Assembly: GCF_007860185.1 (NCBI RefSeq)
Contig: NZ_SJPY01000010.1
Span: 124,001-188,000, forward strand
Length of the DNA: 64,000 nucleotides
Source of the DNA: Novipirellula aureliae
GTDB lineage: Bacteria; Planctomycetota; Planctomycetia; Pirellulales; Pirellulaceae
Direction of reading: 5' to 3'
Notes under the pieces: model-generated
What the model was told of the DNA's origin: nothing
What the model saw: only the letters and a program-made list of their open reading frames with translations
The model's database searches: none
Shown: piece by piece, positions 1 to 56,451 of the stretch
How the letters are laid out: each line of letters starts with the position of its first letter
Position numbering within the stretch: the stretch's first letter is position 1
Position numbers and translations under genes: made by a program

Positions 1-352
1 CCCCAAGGCCAGAGGCCGACACATCGTTGCCGGTGGTGTAAACCACCGGACTCAAACTCCCGTACCCCCAAGGCCGGAGGCCGACACATCCTTGCCGGTG
101 GTGTAAACCACCGGACTCAAGCTCCCATACCCCCCAAGGCCAGAGGCCGACACATCCTTGCCGGTGGTGTAAACCACCGGACTCAAGCTCCCATACCCCC
201 AAGGCCGGAGGCCGACACATCCTTGCCGGTGGTGTAAACCACCGGACTCAAGCTCCCATACCCCCAAGGCCAGAGGCCGACACATCCTTGCCGGTGGTGT
301 AAACCACCGGACTCAAGGTCCCAATACCCCCCAAGGCCGGAGGCCGACACAT
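1..352. repeat. Hairpin repeat array, block 1 (5 units, cut by window start)
   Basis: Five direct units of 65-66 bp. Each has a GGCC(A/G)GAGGCC palindrome followed by GACACAT, then the hairpin CCGGTGGTGTAAACCACCGG (8-bp stem, GTAA loop), then a variable actcaa(a/g)ctccc(a/g)ta linker and a C run. The block ends with a bare GGCCGGAGGCCGACACAT joined directly to a deleted transposase element at 353. Long minus-strand reading frames through it are artefacts of the stop-poor repeat; the unit is not a multiple of three, so the frame changes at every unit. The array probably extends left of the window. Confidence 0.9.
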
Positions 353-644
353 ATTTCCCAATGAACTCCGTTATGGCTTCGCATCAACAGCTTCGTCGCG
401 ATCAAGATGTCAGTGGGTTCCGCACGATCTCTTGTAGAATTGAAGATGGAAATGTGTCGCCCTCTGGGCTAGGGAAAAAAACTAGCAAGTTTCCGGGGCC
501 TGACGACCCCGGCAGTTTATGTGTCGCCCTCTGGGCTGAAACAACAACGACTCTCGAACAAATCGATAAGAACTTGGCCATGGAGCTGACATATCGCTTC
601 CGCCCGCATAGAGGGCAGGCCACCAAGTAGAACACCCAGGTCAC
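353..644 (+). mobile_element. Internally deleted Y1-transposase element, copy 1
   Basis: This 292-bp piece keeps about 35 bp matching the 5' end of the transposase gene at 1920 (actccgttatggcttc, then caacagcttc). After unrelated filler it carries sequence matching the transposase 3' flank: aatgtgtcgccctctgggct, gcaagtttccgggg, and a CCGGGG/CCCCGG hairpin at 493-512. The short ORF it encodes is not a functional transposase. It looks like a non-autonomous derivative that kept both ends of the element. A near-identical copy lies exactly 901 bp downstream. Confidence 0.75.
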
Positions 645-1253
645 CAAGGCCAGAGGCCGACACATCCTTGCCGGTGGTGTAAACCACCGGACTCAAACTC
701 CCGTACCCCCAAGGCCGGAGGCCGACACATCGTTGCCGGTGGTGTAAACCACCGACTCAAACTCCCATGCCCTAAGGCCGGAGGCCGACACATCCTTGCC
801 GGTGGTGTAAACCACCGGACTCAAGCTCCCAATACCCCCCAAGGCCGGAGGCCGACACATCCTTGTCGGTGGTGTAAACCACCGGACTCAAACTCCCGTA
901 CCCCCAAGGCCAGAGGCCGACACATCCTTGCCGGTGGTGTAAACCACCGGACTCAAGCTCCCATACCCCCAAGGCCGGAGGCCGACACATCCTTGCCGGT
1001 GGTGTAAACCACCGGACTCAAGCTCCCAATACCCCCTAAGGCCAGAGGCCGACACATTTTTGCCGGTGGTGTAAACCACCGGACTCAAGCTCCCATACCC
1101 CTAAGGCCAGAGGCCGACACATCCTTGCCGGTGGTGTAAACCACCGGACTCAAGGTCCCAATACCCCTAAGGCCAGAGGCCGACACATTTTTGCCGGTGG
1201 TGTAAACCACCGGACTCAAGCTCCCATACCTCCAAGGCCAGAGGCCGACACAT
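645..1253. repeat. Hairpin repeat array, block 2 (9 units)
   Basis: Nine units of the same design as block 1. Small variants include a loss of one G after the hairpin (near 752), gtcggtgg instead of gccggtgg (near 866), and cacattttt instead of cacatcctt in two units. It again ends in a bare GGCCAGAGGCCGACACAT joined to the second deleted element at 1254. Confidence 0.9.
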
Positions 1254-1545
1254 ATTACCCAATGAACTCCGTTATGGCTTCGCCTCAACAGCTTCTCCGC
1301 GATCAAGATGTCAGTGGGTTCCGCACGATCTCTGGTAGAATTGAAGATGGAAATGTGTCGCCCTCTGGGCTAGGGAAAAAAACTAGCAAGTTTCCGGGGC
1401 CTGACGACCCCGGCAGTTTATGTGTCGCCCTCTGGGCTGAAACAACAACGACTCTCGAACAAATCGATAAGAACTTGGCCATGGAGCTGACATATCGCTT
1501 CCGCCCGCATAGAGGGCAGGCCACCAAGTAGAACACCCAGGTCAC
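1254..1545 (+). mobile_element. Internally deleted Y1-transposase element, copy 2
   Basis: Same 292-bp structure as the copy at 353-644, differing at only a few bases (for example gcatcaacagcttcgtc versus gcctcaacagcttctcc). The near identity at 901-bp spacing suggests that a block of array plus deleted element was duplicated in tandem recently. Confidence 0.75.
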
Positions 1546-1898
1546 CAAGGCCAGAGGCCGACACATCGTTGCCGGTGGTGTAAACCACCGGACTCAAACT
1601 CCCGTATCCCCAAGGCCGGAGGCCGACACATCCTTGCCGGTGGTGTAAACCACCGGACTCAAGCTCCCATACCCCCAAGGCCGGAGGCCGACACATCGTT
1701 GCCAGTGGTGTAAACCACCGACTCAAACTCCCATACCCCCCCAAGGCCGGAGGCCGACACATCCTTGCCGGTGGTGTAAACCACCGGACTCAAGCTCCCA
1801 TACCCCTAAGGCCAGAGGCCGACACATCCTTGCCGGTGGTGTAAACCACCGGACTCAAGCTCGCGTACGCGTACCCCCAAGGCCGGAGGCCGACACAT
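1546..1898. repeat. Hairpin repeat array, block 3 (5 units)
   Basis: Five more units of about 65 bp, one with gccagtgg in place of gccggtgg. The block leads straight into the intact transposase gene: the last GGCCGGAGGCCGACACAT ends 21 bp before its ATG, as it does upstream of both deleted copies. The motif is therefore best read as the left end of the element. Confidence 0.9.
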
Positions 1899-1919
1899 CA
1901 TTCCCCAAGGGACTCCGTT

Positions 1920-2372
1920 ATGGCTTCACATCAACAGCTTCTCTATCACATCGTCTTCAGCACGAAAGAACGCCGGCTGCTGTTGCAAGACAATCTTTTT
2001 CGTGATCATGTATGGACCTACATGGCAGGCGTCTGTACGAACTTGGAGGGACACGCTTTGCGGATCGGTGGTTACTTCGATCATGCACATTTATTGGTAC
2101 GTATCCCAGCCAAAATTGCCGTTGCCGATTTTGTCGGTAGGCTGAAAGCCAACACCAGTAAACATATCAACGAAAGTCGCGATGCGATTTTGAAGTTTCG
2201 TTGGCAGGACGGGTATGGTGCGTTCACGGTAAGTCCCTCAAAGGCCGCTGATGTCATCGGTTACATTGATCGCCAATTGGAGCATCATCGAAAGCGGACC
2301 TACAAAGAGGAGTTTCTCAAGATGTTGCAGGATCATGAAGTCGAGTTTGATCCGCAGTATCTTTGGGAGTAG
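1920..2372 (+). CDS. Y1-transposase, IS200/REP-associated type (HUH single-strand transposase)
   Basis: This 150-residue protein matches the IS200-like Y1 transposase fold. HIVFSTKER is near the N-terminus. The HUH metal motif is HAH in GGYFDHAHLLVRI at about residues 56-68. The likely nucleophilic tyrosine is in GYIDRQLEHH at about 116-125. Enzymes of this family recognise hairpins at element ends and cut and join single-stranded DNA through a 5'-phosphotyrosine. The frame is intact and the length is usual for IS200-type proteins. It is the only complete copy; two deletion derivatives and nineteen hairpin units lie upstream, and a hairpin right end lies downstream. The ATG follows the array by 21 bp with no clear ribosome site, so expression is probably weak. 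It could instead be classed with REP-associated (RAYT) proteins. Confidence 0.88.
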   Translation: MASHQQLLYHIVFSTKERRLLLQDNLFRDHVWTYMAGVCTNLEGHALRIGGYFDHAHLLVRIPAKIAVADFVGRLKANTSKHINESRDAILKFRWQDGYGAFTVSPSKAADVIGYIDRQLEHHRKRTYKEEFLKMLQDHEVEFDPQYLWE

Positions 2373-2471
2373 GGAAGATTGAATGTGTCGCCCTCTGGGC
2401 TTGAAGATCGCTAATGCAAGCTTCCGGGGCCCTGACGGCCCCGGTCGTTCATGTATCGGCCTCTGGCCTAG
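2373..2471 (+). mobile_element. Right end of the Y1 element with hairpin and inverted left-end motif
   Basis: Downstream of the transposase stop are aatgtgtcgccctctgggct, a hairpin CCGGGGCC-ctgac-GGCCCCGG at 2424-2444, and catgtatcggcctctggcc. The last is the inverted complement of the array motif GGCCAGAGGCCGACACAT with one change. The same order, hairpin included, occurs inside both deleted copies. This is the layout expected for the right end of an IS200/IS605-like element. The exact cleavage sites cannot be read from one copy. Confidence 0.7.
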
Positions 2472-2521: not shown

Positions 2522-5254
2522 CTACCCTTTTTTGACTGTCCCTTTTTTTACAACGCCTTTCTTTTTGGTGGTTTTTTTCTTGGCCGCTTTCTTTTTCGTC
2601 GCTTTCTTTGCCGTCTTCTTTTTCGCTGCCTTCTTTTTCTTCTTTTTCTTGGTTGGCCCCTTCGCAGCTCGTTCGGCTAGCAGGTCGAGTGCCGCTTCGA
2701 ACGTCATCTCTTTCGGTTCCATTCCTTTGCGCAACGACGCATTTGTTTCGCCATCGGTGACATACGGCCCGAAGCGTCCGTCCAAGATTTTGACCTCTTG
2801 TTCGGTGATTGGAGACGGCTTTTCGAACATCCGCAGCGGCTCTTTCGGTGCTCCGCGGCGACCTCTTGTTTTCGGTTGCTTCAGCAGTGCGATCGCTTCG
2901 TCAAAGGTGACTTCGAGTGGCGATACTCCGGCGGGTAAGGAGCGCGTTTCCTTTTCGCATTTCACGTAGGGTCCATAGCGGCCATCGAACGCTTGTACGG
3001 GCTCGTTGTTCTCCGGATTCACACCCAACGTGCGTGGTAGCTCCAACAACTTACAGGCCATTTCCAGCGTCAAATCGGCGACTTCCATGCCTTGCAACAG
3101 CGATTGATTTCGTTTTTCCTCGTCGTCATTTTCGCCGAGTTGGATATAGGGTCCGAAGCGTCCGACTTTGACGTAGATCGGCTTTTGTGTTTCGGGGTGG
3201 ATGCCGATTGGTTCGTCTTCGACTTGGCTTTGCTCGATCAATTCGAGTGCCTTTTCCATGTTCATTTCGTCGGGGGCTAAGCCATCGGGGATCGAACCGC
3301 GTCGCTCGCCTTGTTCGATAAATGGGCCATACTTTCCGACGCGTACAAACACCTCTTCGCGATGCTCGCCTTCGGTGGGTGTGCCGAGCGAAAACTTCGC
3401 CGTCGTCCGTGGATCAATCTCTTCGACCTTGCTTTCGAGGCGTGGTTTCAAGCCGATCGGGCTGCCGGCCACATGTTCGAGCTTAGCGTCGCTACCGTCA
3501 CCGAAATAGAAGCGTTGCAGGTATTCGAGTCGCTCCGCTTCTTTGCGGCTAATCGTATCGAGGAAGTCTTCCATTTGGGCAGTGAACTCGTAATCGACGA
3601 GCGGTCCAAAGTGCGTTTCCAGTAGACGAATAACGCTAAAAGCGGTCCAGCTCGGGACCAGCGCCGTTCCTTTTTTGTAGACGTAGTCCCGCTTTTGGAT
3701 CGTGTCAATAATCGAGGCAAATGTACTGGGGCGTCCGATCCCTTTTTCTTCAAGAGTCCGGGTGAGCGCCGCCTCGCTATAGCGTGCGGGTGGCTGTGTC
3801 GTATGACTCTTGGGATCAAGCTGGTCGACCTTTAGCGAATCGTTCTCGTTCATCGCCGGAAGCAATCGTTCTTTGTTCGCCAATTCGGCTTCGGGATCAT
3901 CGCTGCCCTCGACATAGGCACGCAAGAAGCCTTCGAACAGAATACTGGTTCCCGATGCTGTAAACACCGCTCCGCCACCTTCGATGGTAACCGCAATTCG
4001 TTGTTTCTTGGCGTCTGCCATTTGGCAAGCGACGGTTCGTTTCCAGATCAGTTCGAACAAGCGGTATTGGTCGCTATCGAGTTCCCCGCGAACCGCTTGC
4101 GGGACTTTGAAAGGGGTTCCAGCCGGCCGGATCGCCTCGTGAGCCTCCTGAGCGTTTTTGACTTTTCCAGCGTACACGCGGACGGTCGGGTGCAAGAACG
4201 AGTCACCATACTCGCTCTTGACCAATTCACGTGCCGCACCGATCGCCTCGTTACTGAGCGTGGTCGAGTCGGTACGCATGTAAGTGATGTAACCGTTCTC
4301 GTAGAGTCGCTGGGCTGCCTGCATCGCACGGCGCGCGGTGAAGCCGAGTTTTCGGTTCGCTTCTTGCTGCAGCGTACTGGTCGTAAACGGTGCTTTGGGT
4401 CGTTCGGTAAACGGTTTGACTTCGACGTTTGTGACTTTGAAATCGGCTCCACGAAGGCGTTCGGCCAGCTCGCTCGCGGCCGTCTGATCCATTTGCAGCA
4501 AATCTGGATTTTTTAATTTCCCATTGGTCGAATCGAAATCTTTGCCCGAGGGGATTTTTCGGCCTTCGACCGAGGTCAGAGTGGCGGTGAACGATTCGCC
4601 ACGGACGGTTGCGAACGCGGCTTCCAAGTCCCAGTATGTGGCATCGTGGAACGCGATCCGCTCGCGTTCACGTTCAACGATCAAGCGAACCGCAACGCTT
4701 TGAACTCGTCCGGCACTTAGCCCACGACCGACTTTTTTCCAAAGCAATTGGGAGACGTCGTATCCGTAGAGCCGGTCCAAAATCCGCCGTGTTTCTTGGG
4801 CGTCGACGAGCCCCGCGTCGATTTGGCGAGGGGTTTGGATCGCGTGCTCGATCGCTTCCTTGGTGATTTCGTGAAAAACGAGCCGATGGACTGGCACTTT
4901 GGGCTTAAGAATCTCCTGCAAATGCCAACTGATCGCTTCTCCTTCGCGGTCTTCATCGGTCGCCAGATAGAGTTGGTCGGCACCCTTGAGGGCTTCTTTT
5001 AATTTGTTGACCTGTTTTTTCTTATCGGCTGGCACGATATAAATAGGCTCGAAGTCGTTATCCGTGTTGACGCCCAGGTAGGCCCACGGTTCTTTTTTGT
5101 ATTTTTCGGGGACCTCTTTGGCGCCTCCCGGCAAATCACGGATGTGGCCGATACTCGCTTCGACTTGGTAGTCTTTGCCCAGATACTTCGAGATAGTGCG
5201 TGCTTTTGCGGGTGATTCGACAATCACCAAGCTCTTGCTCGTGCTTTTAGCCAT
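2522..5254 (-). CDS. topA: DNA topoisomerase I (type IA) with a lysine/alanine-rich tail
   Basis: This 910-residue type IA topoisomerase relaxes negatively supercoiled DNA in the cytoplasm. The N-terminal TOPRIM domain starts LVIVESPAKARTISKYLG and has the acidic TDEDREGEAISWH motif. The active-site tyrosine is in ENGYITYMRTDST at about residue 325. The C-terminus has four topoisomerase C-terminal repeats, each with a G(K/R)(Y/F)GP(F/Y)(I/V) core, instead of the four-cysteine zinc ribbons of the Escherichia coli enzyme. The last 40 or so residues are almost all K, A and T, like a histone H1-type DNA-binding tail, encoded by T-rich plus-strand DNA at 2522-2660. It is monocistronic and diverges from the gene at 5591. 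Confidence in the identity is very high. Confidence 0.97.
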   Translation of the reverse strand: MAKSTSKSLVIVESPAKARTISKYLGKDYQVEASIGHIRDLPGGAKEVPEKYKKEPWAYLGVNTDNDFEPIYIVPADKKKQVNKLKEALKGADQLYLATDEDREGEAISWHLQEILKPKVPVHRLVFHEITKEAIEHAIQTPRQIDAGLVDAQETRRILDRLYGYDVSQLLWKKVGRGLSAGRVQSVAVRLIVERERERIAFHDATYWDLEAAFATVRGESFTATLTSVEGRKIPSGKDFDSTNGKLKNPDLLQMDQTAASELAERLRGADFKVTNVEVKPFTERPKAPFTTSTLQQEANRKLGFTARRAMQAAQRLYENGYITYMRTDSTTLSNEAIGAARELVKSEYGDSFLHPTVRVYAGKVKNAQEAHEAIRPAGTPFKVPQAVRGELDSDQYRLFELIWKRTVACQMADAKKQRIAVTIEGGGAVFTASGTSILFEGFLRAYVEGSDDPEAELANKERLLPAMNENDSLKVDQLDPKSHTTQPPARYSEAALTRTLEEKGIGRPSTFASIIDTIQKRDYVYKKGTALVPSWTAFSVIRLLETHFGPLVDYEFTAQMEDFLDTISRKEAERLEYLQRFYFGDGSDAKLEHVAGSPIGLKPRLESKVEEIDPRTTAKFSLGTPTEGEHREEVFVRVGKYGPFIEQGERRGSIPDGLAPDEMNMEKALELIEQSQVEDEPIGIHPETQKPIYVKVGRFGPYIQLGENDDEEKRNQSLLQGMEVADLTLEMACKLLELPRTLGVNPENNEPVQAFDGRYGPYVKCEKETRSLPAGVSPLEVTFDEAIALLKQPKTRGRRGAPKEPLRMFEKPSPITEQEVKILDGRFGPYVTDGETNASLRKGMEPKEMTFEAALDLLAERAAKGPTKKKKKKKAAKKKTAKKATKKKAAKKKTTKKKGVVKKGTVKKG

Positions 5255-14274: not shown

Positions 14275-14898
14275 AAAAAGACCTGTTCGAAGGAGAGAAG
14301 CGTTTGATTGATCGGATTGTTAGGGTTATTTCGTCAAACTCGATGGGATGCATTGAGCAGAATGAACAAATCGGTGTACAAAATTCGGTTTGCTCGCACT
14401 GTTCATAAATTTGGAATCACCCGTAGTGGATCTTGTTAAAGATCCCCCCCGTATGCCAGCCGTCAGGATGCTGGGATCTTTGACAAGATCCACTACGTGA
14501 CGATGCTGGGATCTTTAACAAGATCCACTACGTGACGATGCTGGGATCTTTAACAAGATCCACTACGTGACGATGCTGGGATCTTTAACAAGATCCACTA
14601 CGTGACGATGCTGGGATCTTTAACAAGATCCACTACGTGACGATGCTGGGATCTTTAACAAGATCCACTACGTGACGATGCTGGGATCTTTAACAAGATC
14701 CACTACGTGACGATGCTGGGATCTTTAACAAGATCCACTACGTGACGATGATTCATACGGACAAGCCGCGGGTAGCGGTTGTAGGAATCAAGCCCGCTCT
14801 TTGTGGACGAAGCTTCGATCGGCGGTCGATACGAAAGACAATGGTTTCGTGCATCACTTCCATTCATCCCGTCCGATTCTCGAAAACGCTTCTTTCCC
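14275..14898. other. Divergent region between the lipoprotein gene and ftsK
   Basis: The 624-bp gap is dominated by the 35-bp array. Outside it there are about 150 bp beside the lipoprotein start and about 145 bp before the chosen ftsK start. An ORF extends 32 codons upstream of that start, but its sequence is basic and not FtsK-like. No clear promoter could be assigned. Confidence 0.4.
14423..14751. repeat. 35-bp tandem repeat x 8 headed by an inverted copy (REP-like family B)
   Basis: Eight direct copies of a 35-bp unit from about 14466 to 14751. Each contains the palindrome GGATCTTTAACAAGATCC and then ACTACGTGACGATGCT. At the left (14423-14445) is one inverted copy, gtagtggatcttgttaaag. 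The same inverted-pair element occurs singly at 29885-29941 and 56394-56451, so one arm has been amplified here. The copies are identical except that the first has tgac for taac. The array lies in the 600-bp gap upstream of ftsK. Confidence 0.93.
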
Positions 14899-29884: not shown

Positions 29885-29941
29885 GTCGTGGATCTTGTTA
29901 AAGATCCTACCCTGCATGGATCTTTAACTAGATCCACTACC
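29885..29941. repeat. REP-like inverted pair, family B
   Basis: GTGGATCTTGTTAAAGATCC and GGATCTTTAACTAGATCCAC face each other across an 11-nt spacer, 10 bp after the peptidase stop. Outer bases (cccgt/acggg) also pair. Each arm is itself palindromic. It could act as a transcription terminator or mRNA stabiliser; the same element is at 56394-56451. Confidence 0.85.
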
Positions 29942-33170: not shown

Positions 33171-34342
33171 GGGAGTTGGGAGTTGGGAGTGAAGGAGTGA
33201 AGGAGTGAAGGAGTGAAGGAGTGAAGGAGTGAAGGAGTGAGGGAGTGAAGGAGTGAAGGAGTGAAGGAGTGAAGGAGTGAAGGAGTGAGGGAGACTAACA
33301 ATCTATGCGTTCCTATCTTCCCAACTCCCAGCTCCCAACTCCCAACTCCCAACTCCCAACTCCCAACTCCCAACTCCCAACTCCCAACTCCCAACTTTTC
33401 TCTGTGTCCTCTCAGGAACTGCTCTGCTGACATCTCTCGTTTTCCTGCGGGCTGAACCGTCAGAATATCGAGCATGTAGTCGTTCGCCGCCACTTGAAGG
33501 CCTTCCCGGACGACATAGGTCCCAGGTGATTTCGTGCCTGCTGGCTCTTCGGTGACACGAACTTGCTTGATTGCCAAACGAATCACTTCGCCTTTTGGCT
33601 TGGTGGGAATCAACGCAAATGCGGTCGGCCATGGTTGCATGCCTCGCACATGGCAATCAACCATGCGAGCGGATTGATTCCAATTGATTTCCCCTTCGGG
33701 TTTACTCAACCTTGCCGCTCGGGTTGCTTTGGATGGATCTTGCCGAACACCGATCTCGGATTTCCCATCCCAATGCATCAGTTGGTCGACCGCATCGATG
33801 GTTGCCGCGATCCCAATCTCGGAGAGACGTTGTTCCAATTCACCAGCTGTTTCGGTATCCGAGATCGATGTTTTTCGAGTAGCAATGATCGGTCCACCAT
33901 CGAGTTTCGGCGTCATGTGAATGACCGAAACGCCGGTAACGGTATCGCCGCTTAAAAGTGCCCTCTGCACTGGAGCGGCGCCACGGTAGGCAGGCAACAG
34001 TGATCCGTGCAAGTTGATACCGCCGAGCCGAGCGGTTGACAGTGCGTCAGGTTTCAATATTTGGCCGAAATCACAAACGACAAGCAGATCGGCCGAGCAA
34101 GATCGGACGCACTCAATCGCCTCGGGGTCATTGATCGATTCAGGAGCCGCGACGTGGAAACCATGCTCTTGAGCCCATTGGCGAACCGGGGACAGAGGCA
34201 CTTTTTTTCGGCTTTTCATGATCGGCGTTGGTCGCGTCACGACTAATTCAATCACATGACCTGCGGCACGTAACGCTTCGAACGACGGCACCGCAAACGG
34301 ACCGGTACCCATCATCACCATCTTCAATATCGAGTCAGGCAT
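33140..34342 (-). CDS. fmt: Methionyl-tRNA formyltransferase with repeat-encoded C-terminal extension
   Basis: Formylates Met-tRNAi for initiation. Residues 1 to about 316 are a complete Fmt: N-terminal [18 protein letters not shown], the formyl-folate/catalytic region [20 protein letters not shown] with the HGSLLPxYRG core, then the C-terminal tRNA-binding barrel ending [13 protein letters not shown]. After that the frame enters heptamer then octamer tandem repeats, giving repeated GVGSWEL and SLLHSFTP blocks. It stops inside the complement of the last codons of the convergent gene: about 84 extra residues not present in normal Fmt. The extension is probably a by-product of microsatellite growth that removed the native stop. 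Its ATG overlaps the def stop by 8 bp, the usual def-fmt coupling. Confidence 0.95.
33187..33395. repeat. Octamer and heptamer tandem repeats inside the fmt 3' end
   Basis: Two adjoining microsatellites. An 8-bp unit (gagtgaag, plus strand) runs from about 33187 to 33290. A 7-bp unit (ccaactc, plus strand) runs from 33321 to 33395. A short gggagttgggag piece also precedes the octamers near 33172. Both are open in the fmt frame because neither unit creates stops: three octamers encode eight residues and three heptamers encode seven. Confidence 0.93.
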
Positions 34343-56393: not shown

Positions 56394-56451
56394 GGTAGTG
56401 GATCTTGTTAAAGATCCCTGTGCGTCAGGATCTTTAACAAGATCCACTACC
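56394..56451. repeat. REP-like inverted pair, family B
   Basis: A 24-bp perfect inverted repeat (GGTAGTGGATCTTGTTAAAG onward and its complement) around a 10-nt loop, 8 bp after the glycosyltransferase stop. It is the cleanest copy of the family seen at 14423-14751 and 29885-29941. A terminator or mRNA-stabiliser role is plausible. Confidence 0.88.

Follow-up and report, generated by a model that had tools for sequence, protein, structure and literature searches.

A probable REPtron-like locus in Novipirellula aureliae: a Y1 transposase gene of subclass 1.2 type beside a tandem array of double-hairpin ends

The DNA analysed here, hereafter the window, is a 64,000-nt stretch of Novipirellula aureliae (Planctomycetota; bases 124001-188000 of contig NZ_SJPY01000010.1, here C10, in a genome of 7.27 Mb and 40 contigs), and its positions 1-2471 hold the subject of this report: an HUH/Y1 transposase gene that is preceded by a tandem array of double-hairpin units, each headed by a repetitive extragenic palindrome (REP), and followed by the same palindrome in inverted orientation. 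Twenty full units of 63-71 bp lie between a point ~90 bp left of the window and position 2471. Nineteen of them are inside the window, as the initial annotation had reported, with starts from 6 to 1809, and form three plus-strand blocks of five, nine and five full units (1-352, 647-1253 and 1548-1898), each with a solitary REP head at its end (334, 1235 and 1880); the first block extends leftward across the window edge, where the ~90 bp hold one further full unit and a half unit, and the third block also contains the gene region's left end. The blocks are separated by two copies of a gene-less element (351-645 and 1252-1546, plus strand; 98% identity between copies). The gene itself (1920-2372, plus strand) is an open frame for a 150-aa protein with a Y1_Tnp match at E 8.9e-24 and the motifs DHAH, WQ and YIDRQLEHH, resembling those of subclass 1.2 of the TnpA-Y1 transposases. 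Downstream of it follow an inner right-end REP (GCCC stem; 2383-2401, minus strand) with its guide side toward the gene, a GC-rich right-end hairpin (2424-2444; strand not assigned) and an outer right-end REP (GGCC stem; 2451-2469, minus strand), so that the intact gene and the inverted array motif of the initial annotation, the latter found at 2383 and 2451, likewise stand. The array unit consists, in this order, of AGGCC-NGA-GGCC-GACACAT, a hairpin (CCGGTGGT-GTAA-ACCACCGG) and a spacer, and the consensus of either strand, folded as single-stranded DNA, gives two predicted hairpins (z -2.6 and -3.7). At up to two mismatches the REP motif matches the window 28 times, all within 1-2471; in shuffles of the window it gave 0 matches in 19 of 20 and 1 match in the remaining one.

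The gene-less elements had been described as 292-bp elements keeping both ends of the transposase region. Two such elements exist, at 295 nt each, and consist of the opening codons of a related gene, hairpins of the right end and ~100 nt of other sequence; the claim about their ends holds only in part, as what they have in common with the present gene region is 42 nt on the left (90% identity) and ~139 nt on the right (76%). This limited identity marks the elements as old relatives rather than fresh deletions of the present gene. Contig C4 carries a third copy (98%), inside an array of its own of 10 full units (6+4), in a place where this transposase is absent. Near that gene-less array there is also a 349-aa open reading frame (ORF; region L063, 5757-6806) with HLH and YVDLNL stretches resembling other Y1 proteins, and beside the ORF are 34- and 102-bp tandem repeats with CAGAATCATGCTCTGTCCCTAACTGA (L063, 6877-7564).

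The palindrome is dispersed through the genome. At up to two mismatches, the REP motif AGGCCNGAGGCCGACACAT has 79 forward and 60 reverse sites (139, C10 array included), and the reversed pattern, as control, has 0. Nineteen genome regions, chosen from the REP motif sites, contain 14 inverted REP-REP centres (a plus-strand REP, then a minus-strand REP, at 20-32 bp), and 8 of the 14 have a full layout: that is, REP-hairpin-REP, 8-9 bp, and inverted REP-hairpin-REP. These full-layout composites correspond to the transposase locus reduced to its left and right ends, with the gene missing. Outside the C10 array, the 77 sites listed include 11 inverted REP pairs with a spacing of 92-96 bp, and the spacings of same-strand pairs group at 64-68 and 73-74 bp. 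The last unit of the C4 array carries the spacer of the dispersed elements. Further REP arrays lie away from the gene, on C1 (a 24-bp unit x10, a 73-bp unit x4.7 and an 86-bp unit x4.0) and on C7 (a 73-bp unit x3.5). Many dispersed composites (L063 4366-4430, L065, L067, L068, L071, L072, L073, L077 and L079) also have in common, beside one end, a 40-50 bp flank ending CATTGTTTTC or similar, which is either part of the element or a preferred target.

On its motifs, on which membership rests, the enzyme is of TnpA-Y1 subclass 1.2 type. The features of this subclass that are present include Y---Q--HH (YIDRQLEHH), a WQ that is invariant in our alignments, and a length of 150 aa vs. a median of 148 aa; the HUH motif is DHAH in the window protein and DHVH in more distant aligned relatives, the published consensus being DH[IV]H. 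The gene occurs once in the genome, together with one 48% paralogue (L004 5137-5730, on C3), which fits the low copy number and strongly diverged paralogue of subclass 1.2. The hairpin flanking the paralogue differs (GTCGC-TTC-GCGAC-like, with CCTG(T/C)C at its foot), which suggests that each enzyme may have its own palindrome. The closest named relative found, at 75% identity, is from an uncultured Pirellula sp., in a scan whose matches may omit the own genome or ones very near to it. Assignment to TnpA-Y1 class 3 was considered and rejected, since motif and guide differ.

Several properties of the protein would also be expected of an IS200/IS605 insertion sequence (IS) with degenerate or amplified ends. 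The NCBIfam IS200 model scores it at 65.7 bits, above the cut-off of 55, and the NCBIfam REP-transposase model at 23.3 bits, below the cut-off of 80 (at E 0.001, the IS200 model is matched by all 20 aligned relatives and the REP model by 17); the best Protein Data Bank matches of the predicted structure (mean predicted local distance difference test 89.6) are ISDra2 and IS608 TnpA, then other IS200-type structures, with 4er8, a REP transposase, in 30th place (E 1.5e-5); and hairpin ends lie on both sides of the gene. A sequence search of solved structures returned one match only, SAKe6BC over 18 residues. However, the gene is present in a single copy, which rejects an intact mobile IS, the ends occur without the gene, and the relatives branch apart from IS200 enzymes. 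For the last comparison, and for those below, we used two samples: 45 family loci (two of the own genome, the 29 best from other genomes and 14 from genomes bearing REPs) and 80 named loci, which are the best 80 of at least 559 relatives and comprise, sorted by record title, 56 loci of other phyla and 24 of Planctomycetota, with no Cyanobacteria by title. In a tree of 66 proteins, rooted on five other Y1 proteins of the genome, all 53 relatives, selected by similarity (20 of the family set, own included, and 33 of the named loci), form one group (support 0.76), apart from the eight IS200 controls (support 0.97), which are the usable frames from nine loci tried, of 13. Both Y---Q--HH and WQ are found in 53/53 relatives, whereas Y---Q--HH is found in 0/13 of the others (eight IS200 controls and five other Y1 proteins). 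We consider it quite unlikely that the locus is an IS200/IS605 element.

The loci of these relatives carry hairpins with a common foot. When the four bases next to hairpins were counted at the 45 family loci without a preset motif, GACA ranked top of 256 tetramers (163 vs. 2.8 expected from Markov shuffles; the own locus supplies 21 of the 163) and GGCA second. The base before hairpin-GRCA is A in 210/217 cases at the 44 family loci without the own (36 contribute; expected 47%) and in 67/81 cases at the 80 named loci (34 contribute; expected 41%), both expectations being computed with C excluded. The motif A-hairpin-GNNA is concentrated at the gene. At the 56 other-phyla loci it occurs 153 times within 500 bp (2.83 per kb), and then 23 times at 500-1000 bp, 6 times at 1-1.5 kb, twice at 1.5-2 kb and 4 times at 2-3 kb (0.04 per kb for these two ranges together); at the 24 Planctomycetota loci the excess is weaker, with 21 within 500 bp (0.90 per kb) and then 0.09, 0.36, 0.14 and 0.12; at 13 IS200 control loci there is 1 in 12,043 bases within 500 bp and 1 in 23,410 within 1 kb. 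In 25/80 named loci the motifs face the gene from both sides within 300 bp. Same-strand hairpins are spaced 65-74 bp apart in 33/74 pairs at the named loci and in 90/130 at the family loci; at 1.5-2.5 kb from the gene, a range in which the family loci have almost no DNA, the named loci have one same-strand pair, at 145-149 bp spacing. The recurrence of the 65-74 bp pitch suggests that the double-hairpin end is old and that the window array is that end expanded. The initial annotation had called the unit a mobile left end: an end of two hairpins, tandemly expanded, is what we find, although such an end, with its hairpins ~65-74 bp apart, is the ordinary one for this enzyme type.

Within the family, the palindrome accompanies the enzyme. 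The REP motif, at up to one mismatch, occurs in 31/149 sampled family genomes (reversed control, 0 throughout), and at least three REP sites are found in 10/10 genomes with the enzyme at 63% identity or more (own included) vs. 13/139 others. Twelve of those 13 REP-bearing genomes (G067 left out) were re-searched for the enzyme at E 0.001, and 8/12 hold more distant members, at 34-58%. One exact Bacteroidota hairpin was searched in 16 genomes, mostly chosen because the locus showed the hairpin; it is present in 14/16, and scattered over contigs in G157 (35 sites) and in G163 (19 sites; Desulfococcaceae). Among the papers listed by an open-access literature search on this hairpin, none was on the subject by title. 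These associations bear on the possibility that the array is a passive or regulatory repeat, such as a terminator, an mRNA stabiliser or an expression control, that surrounds the enzyme by chance. REPs do affect transcripts, and the last hairpin region of the array stops ~20 bp before the start codon. Against chance stand the recurrence of the end motif near the gene in many phyla, its facing from both sides, its preferred pitch and its association with the enzyme clade within the family, and we regard a passive or regulatory repeat as very unlikely. The results support the initial annotation in taking the enzyme as IS200-like HUH/Y1 and the hairpins as belonging with it.

Tandem arrays are a recurrent feature of such loci. 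Counting tandem repeats with a unit of 20-300 bp and at least 1.9 copies, some of which are mere duplications, we find arrays within 1.5 kb of the gene at 28/80 named loci (42 arrays) vs. 8/80 (8 arrays) at 1.5-3 kb (P 0.0002); of arrays with a score of at least 250, 24 are near and none far, two of the 24 being without a clear hairpin. Examples are L161 (Pollutibacter soli; 1589-2659), with ~23 positions at 47-bp pitch, 17 of which match the hairpin at up to one mismatch, and L086 (genome G133), with seven 65-bp units on the downstream side of the gene. Arrays of score at least 250 occur at 15/45 family loci (own included) vs. 0/13 IS200 controls (P 0.014), in agreement with the earlier remark that the layout is unusual for IS200. 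In the genome analysed here, arrays of that score also flank 7/11 other Y1 matches (6/9 distinct places), which suggests that arrays mark REP-bearing Y1 genes generally, rather than subclass 1.2 alone.

The units themselves bear on how the array grew. The 30 units of C10 and C4 comprise 27 sequences, and identical units lie in different blocks (-59, 137 and 907; 202 and 1613). Identity is 92.8% between neighbours, 93.1% over all C10 pairs, 89.3% between C10 and C4, and 87.5% within C4. These values would fit block exchange with local homogenisation, and do not separate slippage, recombination and enzyme action. The initial annotation had proposed that the transposase itself, acting on single-stranded DNA, produces tandem copies of its left end, and that this may be a transposition or copy-number mechanism. 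The proximity of arrays to subclass 1.2-like genes, as compared with 1.5-3 kb, the absence of arrays of score at least 250 from the 13 IS200 control loci, the growth of units by one hairpin pitch, and the greater likeness of the C10 units (93%) than of those within C4, which lacks a copy of this gene, would all be expected from self-multiplication. However, arrays with different unit lengths lie far away from the gene, and arrays also occur in GTAG-type REPs and at other Y1 types; moreover, direct repeats of such length are expected to expand without a transposase. Slippage or unequal exchange accounts for the arrays as well as enzyme action does, and we judge multiplication by the enzyme itself unlikely. 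Tandem growth special to this locus or enzyme was not borne out, given REP arrays far from the gene, beside other Y1 genes, in the GTAG-tagged family described below and in Pseudomonas; an invention unique to one locus is likewise rejected, as arrays and ends recur elsewhere.

We conclude that the locus is probably REPtron-like and of TnpA-Y1 subclass 1.2 type: that is, its ends would be recognised by the enzyme, gene-less copies of them would have spread, and the left-end pair would have been expanded. The arrangement of the locus, the dispersal of its ends, the end motif and pitch, the enzyme family and the recurrence across phyla are observed; recognition, cleavage, mobilisation and the mode of array growth we infer as follows. 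Most likely, what the enzyme recognises on single-stranded DNA is a short GC hairpin whose foot is preceded on the 5' side by a guide and followed on the 3' side by a T; for the closer relatives, the recognised form, read on the REP strand, would be 5'-TGYC-hairpin-T. Each end of the gene region would consist of two such hairpins one pitch (~65-74 bp) apart, and the enzyme, acting in trans, would spread gene-less copies made of left end, 8-9 bp and right end. The long array would have arisen from the left-end pair through the addition of whole pitches, the likeliest route being slippage or unequal exchange among direct repeats where hairpins stall replication, possibly initiated by cuts of the enzyme.

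Several observations weigh against this interpretation. The chief finding against a strict link of palindrome and enzyme is this: the initial annotation had named wide occurrence of the unit in genomes without the transposase as evidence against its proposal, and, in partial agreement with that, no enzyme relative at E 0.001 is found in 4/12 re-searched REP-bearing genomes (G038, G088, G050 and G122). For one of them, G038, assembly loss is possible: it has 25 same-strand REP pairs at 66 bp and five REPs in a row at one contig end, and 24/93 of its REP sites are within 350 bp of a contig start, so that the enzyme gene may be lost or unassembled. Such motifs are few or absent in many relatives: only 16/45 family loci have at least three hairpin-GACA, two motifs within 500 bp are present in only 6/24 Planctomycetota named loci, and 55/80 named loci do not have motifs facing the gene from both sides within 300 bp. 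Nor are the locus counts independent, as the samples consist of related loci selected for their similarity to the enzyme. In genomes other than G157 and G163 the Bacteroidota hairpin is mostly near one or two places, and its scatter in only two genomes indicates that REP-like spread is not general. Finally, neighbouring units of the array are no more alike than all pairs, so simple recent duplication of neighbours is not seen.

What appears to be new is the combination of this enzyme type with REPs and hairpin ends, REPs of subclass 1.2 not having been found in print in the open-access literature; the array is striking but of a previously described kind. A bolder proposal, that the subclass 1.2 TnpA enzymes of many phyla make up a REP-handling lineage apart from others, which has a guide code of its own (TGYC, or on the other strand a GNNA relative) and bipartite double-hairpin ends and actively drives tandem end growth, as a distinct copy-number mechanism on single-stranded DNA, we regard as doubtful. 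Subclass 1.2 has so far been an orphan, its members being relatives of IS200 enzymes without a reported DNA partner, and a defined end motif, guide and pitch make its substrate testable as an oligonucleotide. The REPtron-like interpretation would add a further palindrome-handling enzyme lineage beside the REP-associated tyrosine transposases (RAYTs), and natural arrays, of which there are many, upstream or downstream of the gene, offer material for asking how REP arrays grow.

The locus is bordered on the left by an ORF of 383 aa (L003 10597-11748) and on the right by topA (2522-5254, minus strand; topoisomerase domains). In two congeners a different small gene comes after topA, without an array, and for this reason no exact empty site is readable. 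Other repeats were also noted. A second REP family, GTAG-tagged like classical REPs (GTAGTGGATCTT-loop-AAGATCC), forms 8 tandem copies at 35-bp pitch in the window (14474-14741; region 14423-14750) and inverted pairs 33 bp apart (29885-29940 and 56395-56450), with 7 further copies at 28-bp pitch upstream of the window (L003 8391-8570). On contig C8 (L128-L130), Y1 genes with NHWH and YVERN are flanked by a tandem GAGTCCTGACACC repeat, another REP-like system. At 33186-33396 the window has two adjacent short arrays, GGAGTGAA x13.5 and TCCCAAC x11.

The locus can be compared with several known systems. With IS200/IS605 elements (IS608, ISDra2) it has in common the HUH/Y1 fold, here in a predicted model, hairpin ends, and a putative guide at the hairpin foot; it differs in having, in this one genome, one gene copy rather than several near-identical copies, and in its gene-less ends and tandem arrays, strong arrays being absent from the 13 control loci. 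TnpA-Y1 class 3, in the available part of the text of Quentin et al. (2018; PMC6006769), is similar in its presence in Planctomycetes, its REP-like atypical hairpins and its Y----Q, whereas its guide CnGA, NHVH, YV...EQ and longer protein do not match. Subclass 1.2, in the same part of that text, agrees in Y---Q--HH, WQ, a length of ~150 aa and low copy number with a diverged paralogue; it is described there as mostly from Cyanobacteria and Bacteroidetes, without REPs and generally without reported IS200-type ends, whereas here there are hairpin ends and dispersed REPs, and Planctomycetota are among other phyla. The REPtron, that is, a RAYT (TnpA-REP) with its REPs or REP doublets forming hairpins (REPINs), as in E. 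coli, Pseudomonas and Stenotrophomonas, is alike in its low-copy Y1 gene, in flanking inverted hairpins that are also dispersed genome-wide, often in pairs, and in tandem clusters beside the gene; for Pseudomonas fluorescens SBW25, the accessible portion of PMC3116915 describes both tandem arrays of REPs and clusters of REPINs next to RAYT genes. Compared with the RAYTs, the present system has TGYC in place of the guide GT[AG]G (the commonest neighbours, GACA and GGCA, read TGYC on the REP strand), Y---Q--HH in place of Y---NP, and ends that are double hairpins at a pitch of 65-74 bp.

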